Below, piece after piece: positions 1,979-50,180 of a stretch of 64,000 bases of DNA. This DNA is from a virus. How positions within the stretch are numbered: position 1 is the first letter of the stretch; each line of letters opens with the position of its first letter. The notes beneath the pieces are model-generated. The model worked only from the letters and a program-made list of their open reading frames with translations. It was not told the origin of the DNA and made no database searches. Where the stretch lies: positions 1 to 64,000 of the IMG/VR virus record IMGVR_UViG_3300038441_001309; one strand, given 5' to 3'. Made by a program: the position numbers and the translations under genes.

Positions 1979-3568
1979 TTATCTCCGGGTGATGATGTTG
2001 TAAGAACCGACTGTCAGCATCAGGATGCGACGTTGGCCTGGGGTGAGGTTACCGCCACCATGTCCGCCAGGTACACTAGGGGGGCGAGATGGACGAGGCC
2101 ACACACCTGGACGAGGAGGTGAGATGATGTCAACAATCCATTCCCACTCTTCACGGGTCCAGAAGCAGCGCTTATTTGGCTTAGGTATCTGTCCGGCTGC
2201 AGCGAGCGCTGGATACATCTGAACCAATACCTCATACATCTTGCAGGCATTCTGACGCAGGCGATCCTGGTCCTCCACAGAGAGTGTGTAGAGGTTATTG
2301 CGGAAGGCAATCACAACATGGTAGATCGGCACCATGGACACATCGAACAGGGAACGGATCATTCCGTCTTCAGTCAACTCGACCTGCCCGTTCAAGTGAC
2401 GCTCGTTATCGGAGTACACCGCGATGTCAAAAAGACTACGGCCGTAATCCACCACGTACTTACGCTCAGACATGATGAAGTCACGAGCAGCGTCGCTGAG
2501 CTTGTGCACGCCCAGGGTGTCGATGGACAACATGTCCTTGCGGTTATCCGCAGAGATCGTTGTCAGGCCATACCACAGGTCGATACAGCCACGAGTACCG
2601 CCTTCCACCTGCCATGTATCGAAGTCAGGGTAACGTTTGTCCAGAATGCCCTTAGGAGGCGTCCAGACGTTGAAGAAGCTACCGAGAGTACGATTGACCG
2701 TGTTAGGGTCTACGTCGTGGTCAGAGAGCTTGTACATGCCTTGCTTGGGACGGAAGTCTGCCCCCAGCATCTTCTGCCGCACAACCAATGGGTAATCCAG
2801 GACAGCCTCAATAGGCTTGTCATAAACCACGCTGTACGACCACTCCAGATCCCAGGTGCCGTTGTCCTTGTTGAAGGTCGGCTCATCCATGACGCCAGAG
2901 AAGTCAAACCAACCCAGCACCCGTACCTGATCTTCAGGCACAACCAACACACCTCCTTTACCTGCCAAGTTGGTGACAGTGTCCACCCGTGGATCGAAAC
3001 GATCCTTGAGGTACTTGGGGAACGAGTCGCCGGTCTTGTCGTGGGCTTCCTGCTTCATCCAGATCTCGTGGAGGATAACCAGGAACACTTCGGGGATCTG
3101 CCAGTGGTAGGTCAGCGTGTGCACTTGCTCGTGGCGCAACAGATGGGAACGGGCCCATGTATCGTCACGTAGCTTGCTGGCCTCAATCTCGTCTTTACAG
3201 CGCAGACGAAACGTCAGCGTGGCTTTGGTAGGCTGATAGACGGGACGGACGTATACGTGCGTCTCTGCGTCCTTAAAGATCACATTGTTGTCGCGTCGGA
3301 TAACCGAGGCTTCATAGATGCGATCGGTGATGGGGTCTTCTTTGATTTTCAGAATGGCTTCGTTGTTAGTGCCGAACCAGTTCTTGGTATCAAAATTGTT
3401 GTCGATGGTGGAGCCCTGAACGAGTGCCTGCTCAGTGTGGCCAGGGATGCTCAGGAATGCGTCTTCGGGAAACCCTAGCCGAGCAAGGCAGTCCTTGGCA
3501 ATGGCAAAAGCCATGGGACGCGTCACGGTCTCGTAGGTATTCCCAATAGCGTAGTTACCATTGGGCAT
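1979..3568 (-). CDS. Hypothetical probable virion protein (529 aa), Pro/Gly-rich C-terminal segment
   Basis: The frame is open to 3652, but the extra N-terminal codons would run through the terminator hairpin of the upstream gene. The ATG at 3568 has AAGGAC 6-9 nt upstream, so I take that as the start (MPNGNYAIGN). The protein is soluble and acidic to neutral. Near the C-terminus is a low-complexity linker (PPRPGVWPRPSRPPSVPGGHGGG), after which about 20 residues complete the chain. No enzyme motif was seen. It sits between an inner-body-like protein gene and another unknown structural-looking gene, which suggests a virion component, perhaps of tail or baseplate. Confidence 0.75.
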   Translation of the reverse strand: MPNGNYAIGNTYETVTRPMAFAIAKDCLARLGFPEDAFLSIPGHTEQALVQGSTIDNNFDTKNWFGTNNEAILKIKEDPITDRIYEASVIRRDNNVIFKDAETHVYVRPVYQPTKATLTFRLRCKDEIEASKLRDDTWARSHLLRHEQVHTLTYHWQIPEVFLVILHEIWMKQEAHDKTGDSFPKYLKDRFDPRVDTVTNLAGKGGVLVVPEDQVRVLGWFDFSGVMDEPTFNKDNGTWDLEWSYSVVYDKPIEAVLDYPLVVRQKMLGADFRPKQGMYKLSDHDVDPNTVNRTLGSFFNVWTPPKGILDKRYPDFDTWQVEGGTRGCIDLWYGLTTISADNRKDMLSIDTLGVHKLSDAARDFIMSERKYVVDYGRSLFDIAVYSDNERHLNGQVELTEDGMIRSLFDVSMVPIYHVVIAFRNNLYTLSVEDQDRLRQNACKMYEVLVQMYPALAAAGQIPKPNKRCFWTREEWEWIVDIISPPRPGVWPRPSRPPSVPGGHGGGNLTPGQRRILMLTVGSYNIITRR

Positions 3569-47943: not shown

Positions 47944-49941
47944 TTACCAGACCGAACGACCGCCGTAAGCAGCGGTGTTGGCCGCGGTGTTGCCACCGCC
48001 GTTGAACACGCCAGCACCAGCAGCACCAGCTGCGAATGCGCCGTAGTCGTAGCCACCCAGGACCTGACCCGAACCCAGACCGTGAACCATGTTCGCTGGG
48101 TTGACAACCAGGCCGCAGGCTTGGCAGGCTTCCGACAGGACGCGCAGGAACACAGGGCCGATGATGTAGCGGCCGGAGTAGCCAGTGATCACCTGACGAC
48201 CTTGCAGCACGTCGTCGATGATGGCCAAACGCTTGGACATACGGATCGGCGCTTGGGCGGTGCCGGCAGCGAACGAATCAGCGTAGTCGATGAGCGCCTG
48301 TGGGTTGGTCTTGCCCAGGACGTTGGCGACGGCCAGCAGGTCCACATCACGAATGTCACGCAGCTCGCCGGTTTCGGAAGCGTAGTAACCGTTGTGGATG
48401 CGGTTGCCGGTATCGATGAACAGCGGGAAGCCACCACCGATGGCTGCAGCTTTCTGGCCGTAGATACCACCGGTCAGGTTGTTGCACGCATCGGTCAGCG
48501 CCTTGATGGCGTTGCCGTTGCCCGAGGCAGCAGCGCGGAAGATGTCCATGATGAAGGCGTCAGGACCGACTTCTGGGATATCGATCGCGAAGATCACACC
48601 GGCGTTCAGGCGGAAGAAATCGCGCATGAAGTTGCCGAAGTTTTCCTTGAAGCTGGCAGCCTTGGTGTCGATACGAGCATTTTCCGGTACGCAGAAGCCC
48701 AGGGCGCCGACGTCACGGAAGTTCAGCTCCTTGCCCTGGTTGGCGAAGCGCGGCAGGTAGGCGTCAGCCCAGCCATTGCGGATCTGCACCATGGTCGCAG
48801 TGACCAGGCCCAGCAGGGACATTTCAACTTCCTGCGCGTCGAAGCCGGAGGCGATCTGGGTGATCACCATCTGGTTGAAGAACGGCTGGTTGTTGGCAGG
48901 GTTCTGCGGGTCAGGCTGCGCGTACACCGGCTCCATGTAACCGGCAACCTTGGTGATGTTGCTGGAGGCGCCGGCGAAGTCGCGGTTCTGCTGGTTGCGG
49001 ACCGAATCCATCTCGACGATAACGTCGTGACGCTGCGGCATGCCGACTTCGTCGACGTAACGCTCGCCGCCGAAGTTCAGACGGCCGACCAGTTGCTCGC
49101 CGCCTTGGTTACGACCGGCCAGGGTGTAGGCTGGTTGGTCATCGAGCTGAACGACGTAGTTCAGGGTGTTGTACAGTGCCAGGGTGGCCTTGTACAGCAG
49201 GTTGTACACGCCGTTGGTTTCGATGTTGTAGGCGGCAGGCAGGATCACGGCACCGGCGTCGATCAGGTTGATCGCACGGCCCTGGCGGGTCTGAGTGACC
49301 AGCTCGGTGGCGCGGGTGATGTAGTCCTGGCTGTTGTAGATGTCGCCGATGACGATCGGGGTCTCGTAGGCACGGCCATCGACCTTGTCGACCTTCGGAG
49401 TCAGACGGATGTCTGCGCCGTCGATCAGGAACGAGTACATGCCGACGTGCTCGGCGTCGGAGGTCTTGACGGTCATCAGCAGAACAACCGACGAAGTCGG
49501 CAGGTTCAGCTGGGCGGCGTCCATGATCTGCACGGCCCATTCGGAAACACCGTCAGCCTTCAGACCGGCCTTCAGTTCTTTCTCGATTGCAGTCTGCAGC
49601 TCTTTGGCACGGACGGAGCCGGCAGAGCGCGACAGAGGACGCAGGCGACGAGCGCCCAGGTCGTTCAGGGTGTTGAACGATTTTGCGTCGCGGCGACCTT
49701 GGGTGTATTGATCAGTGTTGCTCATGGTGATGCTGTCCTTATTAACGTTAATAGATTGATCGACAATAGCTTCGCGTTGCTGGGCTGGCTGTTGTCGTAC
49801 TGCAGGTTCCTGGATATCCACAGCGGGCTTCGCTGCAGACGTCGCAGGCTCCACTTGCGCTTGGGTGTCAAGGCCGGCCCTTTTAAAGGCTTCTGCCATG
49901 ATGTTACCACCCGATGCGCTTTGCTTCTTTTCAACGGACAT
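47944..49941 (-). CDS. chmA: Phage nucleus shell protein ChmA (chimallin), phiKZ gp54 type
   Basis: 665 residues from ATG 49941 (AAGGAG 7 nt upstream), or 593 from an internal ATG at 49725 (AAGGA 10 nt upstream). The body begins SNTDQYTQGRRDAKSFNTLNDLGARRLRPL and has the globular, beta-rich sequence of large phage chimallins (blocks such as RMSKRLAIIDDVLQGRQVITGYSGRYIIGP), with a Gly/Ala-rich C-terminal tail. It is immediately followed by the nvRNAP beta' N gene, as in phiKZ (gp54-gp55). ChmA forms the protein lattice that encloses phage DNA. Codon use is the most biased in the window. A candidate early promoter is 64 nt upstream. The 72-residue N-terminal extension is unusual: an AFKRAGLD helix plus Gln/Pro/Ala-rich linker. 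Confidence 0.85.
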   Translation of the reverse strand: MSVEKKQSASGGNIMAEAFKRAGLDTQAQVEPATSAAKPAVDIQEPAVRQQPAQQREAIVDQSINVNKDSITMSNTDQYTQGRRDAKSFNTLNDLGARRLRPLSRSAGSVRAKELQTAIEKELKAGLKADGVSEWAVQIMDAAQLNLPTSSVVLLMTVKTSDAEHVGMYSFLIDGADIRLTPKVDKVDGRAYETPIVIGDIYNSQDYITRATELVTQTRQGRAINLIDAGAVILPAAYNIETNGVYNLLYKATLALYNTLNYVVQLDDQPAYTLAGRNQGGEQLVGRLNFGGERYVDEVGMPQRHDVIVEMDSVRNQQNRDFAGASSNITKVAGYMEPVYAQPDPQNPANNQPFFNQMVITQIASGFDAQEVEMSLLGLVTATMVQIRNGWADAYLPRFANQGKELNFRDVGALGFCVPENARIDTKAASFKENFGNFMRDFFRLNAGVIFAIDIPEVGPDAFIMDIFRAAASGNGNAIKALTDACNNLTGGIYGQKAAAIGGGFPLFIDTGNRIHNGYYASETGELRDIRDVDLLAVANVLGKTNPQALIDYADSFAAGTAQAPIRMSKRLAIIDDVLQGRQVITGYSGRYIIGPVFLRVLSEACQACGLVVNPANMVHGLGSGQVLGGYDYGAFAAGAAGAGVFNGGGNTAANTAAYGGRSVW

Positions 49942-50004
49942 TATCCGTCTCCTTAGAGGGATTTAGGTGGCCATGAATCATCAATCCCCAGAACGATTCA
50001 CAAT

Positions 50005-50022
50005 GATAATTCAGTTCTGAGA
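50005..50022 (-). promoter_or_regulatory. Candidate early promoter element (copy 3, upstream of ChmA)
   Basis: GATAATTCAGTTCTGAGA, a variant with three or four changes from GATAATTTAGGTTTCAAA, in the same orientation and 64 nt upstream of the ChmA start. Confidence 0.5.
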
Positions 50023-50180
50023 AGAGTTTATTTCATGCCATTATTCTAAACCGGCGGCAAAGGGTTAATGCACCTTTCAGTGCGGAGAGCTTTCTAGCTA
50101 TACCATAGGAACACCTGTGTGAGTTTAACACGCTGGTCTATCTTTTGACCCCTCACACACCGCCCAAAAGGATTCCCCCA

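Follow-up and report, generated by a model that had tools for sequence, protein, structure and literature searches.

A candidate second in-frame start in the chimallin gene of a phage: a long and a possible short form of a nucleus shell protein

Introduction

The closest described relatives of the gene discussed here are the chimallins (ChmA, or PhuN) of the Chimalliviridae, which form the shell of the phage nucleus, a square lattice around the phage DNA. In the 201phi2-1 protein, residues 1-47 (the “N tail”) are unresolved in the structure and deletion of the N-terminal assembly segment (NTS, residues 48-61) disrupts assembly (PMC9365700). The same study found that removing residues 1-47 leaves the protein as able to enter the shell as the full-length form (P=0.41; PMC9365700). 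For phiPA3, the exposed N terminus has been inferred to face the cytosol, and the published PhuN is a 602-aa form (PMC9938867). The way in which capsids, importers and mRNA exporters recognize the phage nucleus has yet to be settled (PMC12908238), and ChmA has so far been described in print as one species. Elsewhere in phages one gene can yield two polypeptides, as is the case for endolysin genes carrying an internal in-frame start (PMC9430671, PMC12203907). Might a shell protein be made in the same way? In the literature searched, where journal coverage is incomplete, no report of chimallin isoforms or of an internal chmA start was found. This article describes a chmA gene in which such a second start is strongly suggested by comparative data.

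A chimallin gene and its relatives

The window is the whole stretch of DNA that was analysed, 64,000 nucleotides long, and it comes from an IMG/VR virus contig of 140,672 bases. Two of its features are needed at the outset:

47944..49941, minus strand: long form of chmA (665 aa), coding for a chimallin, the shell protein of the phage nucleus; assigned by homology and synteny
49624..49665, minus strand: counterpart of the 201phi2-1 NTS (about residues 93-106), placed by phmmer and a MAFFT panel (PMC9365700, PMC10149743)

The open reading frame at 47944-49941 (minus strand) is a genuine chimallin. It matches Pfam family PF25677 (E=2e-40, 138.9 bits against a cut-off of 27), phrog_4795, the nuclear shell protein family (E=3e-68), and the chimallins of the PDB (best E=3e-32). 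Over aligned stretches, its identity to the chimallins listed in the phage collection does not exceed 30%. Comparison with annotated phages also shows the gene order of the family, with an RNA polymerase (RNAP) subunit downstream and a gp52-like gene and a DNA polymerase upstream. Within the NTS-like segment, R101 aligns with R56 of 201phi2-1 and is invariant in all five genes of what is called here the window clade, that is, the window chmA and four relatives from IMG/VR whose identity over the best segment is 53-73%. Genome contigs gave no further close relatives, and queries with RNAP and ChmA recovered the same four contigs. For the two-domain chimallin fold, with its GNAT-like C-terminal domain, AlphaFold2 on five sequences returned a pLDDT of 32, too low for use.

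Further along the same strand, another gene probably begins at the ATG at 3568 (minus strand), which has an AAGGA and lies behind a terminator-like hairpin, rather than at the more upstream start of the longest ORF.

The upstream start and the N tail

Upstream of the chimallin core, the minus strand carries these elements:

49949..49955, minus strand: Shine-Dalgarno (SD) sequence TAAGGAG, serving the upstream start at an aligned spacing of 5, with AAGGAGACGG invariant in 5/5 clade genes
49876..49899, minus strand: helix motif MAEAFKRA, residues 15-22, kept in 5/5 clade genes
49747..49875, minus strand: Pro/Ala/Gln linker of low complexity (residues 23-65) that evolves fast and carries indels

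A first-pass annotation of this DNA had placed an upstream ATG with a strong AAGGAG at 49941, and this holds: the codon is preceded at good spacing by TAAGGAG (49955-49949). The short helix (MAEAFKRAGLD) and the Pro/Ala/Gln linker that it described are both there. It had also proposed comparing starts in related phages, where a general lack of the extension would have counted against it; the 72-residue extension is kept in all four close relatives, each with AAGGAGACGG 5′ of the first ATG.

The two parts of the extension evolve differently. Between two of the relatives, L003 and L004, codons 1-22 differ by seven synonymous and no nonsynonymous changes, a sign of purifying selection and thus of a long form that is translated and whose tip is selected. 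The linker has a pN/pS of 0.78 in this same pair and of 1.15 between the window and L003. At the level of sequence, these data establish the long form and selection on its helix, and there is little reason to doubt that the long form is real. The extension itself is no oddity: chimallins are known to have a disordered N tail, of which this is a long example. Chimallin N tails vary widely in length, with those of RAY and AH06 exceeding the window's, and the idea of an extension special to this phage must be given up.

A related helix motif is found in chimallins of Erwinia, Salmonella and Burkholderia phages. The pattern [MLVI][AGR][DEA][AS][LFM] lies near the N terminus of 12/25 chimallin sequences and of 6/18 sequences selected for independence, where shuffling gives a mean of 0.11, a significance that is overstated to some degree because the pattern was picked after the sequences had been viewed. 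The helix does not seem to be a tag common to other phage proteins, as no other convincing case was seen near an SD-bearing start in the 140-kb record. M15 was likewise discarded as a third start: the helix motif accounts for the methionine, whose place is taken by Leu or Val elsewhere, and the SD of M15 is not conserved.

The chmA leader (window 49955-50110, minus strand) contains three blocks kept in relatives, namely CCTATGGTATAGC, GGCCA and AAGGAGACGG, the first of which may be a promoter. Folding of this leader gave no stable RNA structure. A structured leader RNA that would select the start, suggested by a GAAT...ATTC inverted repeat, was rejected: folding z-scores ran from -1.6 to +0.9 and the structures disagreed.

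The internal start

Two further features define the second, predicted product:

49736..49741, minus strand: SD TAAGGA of the internal start, aligned spacing 7, with AAGGA at identical spacing in 5/5 genes
47944..49725, minus strand: predicted chmA short form, 593 aa, from Met73, with a conserved SD and low local structure

The internal ATG reported at 49725 with an AAGGA is indeed present, as residue 73, behind TAAGGA at 49741-49736. The accompanying statement that the chimallin core begins near this ATG is right as to the neighbourhood but not as to the exact place, as the Pfam match runs from residue 83 and the assembly segment from about residue 93, i.e., 10-20 residues later. Of the internal ATGs in the window's 55 gene-like ORFs, 4.9% follow an SD of 5 nt or more at functional spacing, so that a lone instance in one gene is only mildly unusual and means little. 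Conservation is more telling. When 39 window genes were aligned to the matching regions of three relatives' genomes (four genomes), 174 ATG columns proved to be conserved in all four, and 7/174 follow an SD of 5 nt or more in every genome. Four of these are residue-1 starts, and those at 3568 and 50181 read as the true starts of ORFs whose mechanical start lies further up. The seventh is chmA residue 73, the only within-gene ATG among the 174 columns to meet this description.

The site is also unstructured. The minimum free energy of 140 nt around it lies between -22 and -26, where the gene means are -41 to -46, and the mRNA folds more weakly there than at 96-100% of gene positions. The codon preceding the AAG of the internal SD ends in A or T in 5/5 genes. 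Synonymous-site conservation was considered as a further mark and set aside: it is raised, but not above other places in the gene. There are strong indications of internal initiation, and the start is probably used.

Tail starts in other chimallin lineages

A tail ATG with an SD is a candidate internal start in two other deeply diverged chimallin lineages, the FLC9 and SNUABM_54 groups, whose namesakes are isolated phages of Burkholderia glumae and Erwinia amylovora, respectively. In Burkholderia phage FLC9, whose chimallin is 28% identical to the window's, AAGGACGAGGTAAC precedes the tail ATG (M47). The 641 codons of this gene include a single GGA and a single CGA, which are adjacent and both lie at the M47 SD. 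In six FLC9-like loci, 76-78% identical, the tail around the SD of M39 is altered, with indels, and GAGG is kept before M39; it contains the gene's sole CGA (codon counts from five full-length genes). The internal SDs of the FLC9 group (-6.8 and -5.9) equal or exceed the SD of the annotated start (-5.4) in strength. The genes flanking FLC9 chmA use CGA for 13/169 arginines and GGA for 22/141 glycines, and relaxed codon use in tails weakens the argument from rare codons. In Erwinia phage SNUABM_54 and its relatives L057 and L058 (53% and 92%), a tail ATG is preceded by AAGGA or GAGGA; read from this ATG, the L057 sequence is MSQN, which is also found in the window-clade gene L005.

The chimallins of RAY, AH06, SA002, SNUABM37, LucasX, Eowyn and phiKZ lack an SD-bearing tail ATG. 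RAY, AH06, SA002 and SNUABM37 are long-tailed, and two forms are thus not essential to the family. Immunoblots of phiKZ have reported the ChmA band at 70 kDa (PMC12571901), which fits the lack of an internal start in that phage.

Two further observations concern tails of other kinds. Codon 57 of chmA in Salmonella phage SA002 (L012) is a GTG in the tail, after AGGTGG (dG -8.1), and could be a non-ATG internal start. The chimallins of 201phi2-1, Viktualia, Phabio, phiPA3, PA1C and D6 (L014, L033, L032, L015, L031 and L019) have a Met-Gln at residue 26-34, shortly N-terminal of the NTS. No internal start is claimed for this recurrent pair in 201phi2-1-like tails, where any SD is weak, at most 4 nt long and accounted for by amino-acid composition; the pair may be a start or a peptide feature.

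Assembly of the short form

The predicted short form retains the NTS segment, which both forms would therefore have. Since a tail-less chimallin enters the shell, the two forms would be expected to share one lattice. The dispensable tail of 201phi2-1 has no helix motif.

The tail of phiPA3 may itself be longer than described. Its chimallin (L015:2539-2614, NC_028999 gp053) has an annotated start without a Shine-Dalgarno sequence, and an in-frame ATG 25 codons upstream (MSIRDSENN, cf. MIRD in 201phi2-1) is preceded by AAAGGA. The 602-aa construct may lack these 25 natural N-terminal residues.

One form or two?

Two ChmA forms, as the first-pass annotation envisaged, are well supported by the comparative evidence; its assignment of a bulk form and a minor, docking-tagged form is not. 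Of the two SDs in the window clade, the upstream one is the stronger (-9.1 vs. -5.9 kcal/mol), which favours the long form. Codon adaptation rises from 0.31-0.46 in the extension to 0.72-0.80 directly after the internal ATG in all five genes, and this jump could be taken as proof of a bulk short form, or even as a sign that the internal ATG is in practice the main or only start, with the upstream start little used and the extension mostly an untranslated leader. A similar jump occurs in RAY, AH06 and SA002, none of which has an internal ATG start, so that the jump decides nothing. An extension that is mostly leader would also have to be squared with an invariant and stronger upstream SD and with the seven synonymous and zero nonsynonymous changes of the first 22 codons, and it is very improbable.

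The main rival is a peptide motif, because Lys-Asp codons readily give AAGGA. Only the long form would then be made, K-D-x-[IV]-x-M-[ST]-Q would be a tail motif providing, e.g., an added strand or a lattice contact, and the likeness to an SD would be a by-product. The internal SD is indeed encoded by a conserved Lys-Asp, and given the amino acids, synonymous choice yields an SD of such length with P of 0.18-0.56. The patch has a pN/pS of about 0.26-0.54, tighter than the linker in most comparisons, and the flanking V66, D77, R83 and R84 are likewise invariant, as might be expected of a peptide motif. Such a motif does not call for an unstructured site or for an A or T before AAG in every clade gene, and no second conserved internal ATG with an SD of this kind turned up across the 39 genes. 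The best argument against it is the FLC9 SD, which rests on other amino acids (Q-G-R-G-N) and uses the rarest codons of its gene. A motif in a single long form is accordingly an unlikely reading, though a far stronger one than an untranslated leader.

Translation from two starts is the preferred reading: the conserved internal SD, the two further lineages, the retained NTS and the entry of a tail-less chimallin into the shell make two ChmA isoforms likely. The two in-frame starts would share one gene. From the upstream one would come a 665-aa chimallin whose disordered N tail bears a short conserved helix close to the tip; initiation at the internal one would give a 593-aa chimallin without the tail, with the NTS and both core domains. 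Both forms would enter the same square lattice, so that only some subunits would display a helix tail, probably towards the cytosol, where the helix would bind a partner. The probability of this scheme, partner included, is put at about 0.62. The mixed lattice, the facing of the tail and partner binding are the steps that we infer. A docking role for the tail is plausible, “docking tag” being an interpretive name, and a binding element on the cytosolic side is a tentative proposal with somewhat less than even chances. Partners such as docking capsids, ChmB or import/export factors are guesses. Wider still, and rather doubtful, is the idea that a tail-internal start is a recurrent, selected chimallin feature, yielding two-isoform nuclei whose cytosolic helix tails, at a ratio set by the starts, attach capsids and import or export factors.

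If two ChmA forms are made, the tail helix becomes a ready candidate for a recognition site on the phage nucleus, and the published constructs of chimallins with tail starts represent one of two natural forms.

Comparison with known systems

The window protein resembles the ChmA/PhuN proteins of the Chimalliviridae (201phi2-1 gp105, Goslar gp189, phiPA3 gp53 and RAY gp222) in its Pfam and PHROG families, in the RNAP subunit encoded downstream, in its NTS-like segment (R101 corresponding to R56) and in the disordered N tail that precedes it. Unlike 201phi2-1 ChmA, which has 47 residues before the NTS, it has about 92, and RAY has more still; a further difference is the conserved candidate internal start in the tail of the window clade. 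In this last respect it is closer to the phage endolysin genes, which also have two in-frame starts and one stop, with a short product devoid of the N-terminal part, and whose isoforms can co-assemble. It differs from them in that chmA encodes a shell lattice protein, that the part lost is a disordered tail and that the two products are here predicted from sequence.
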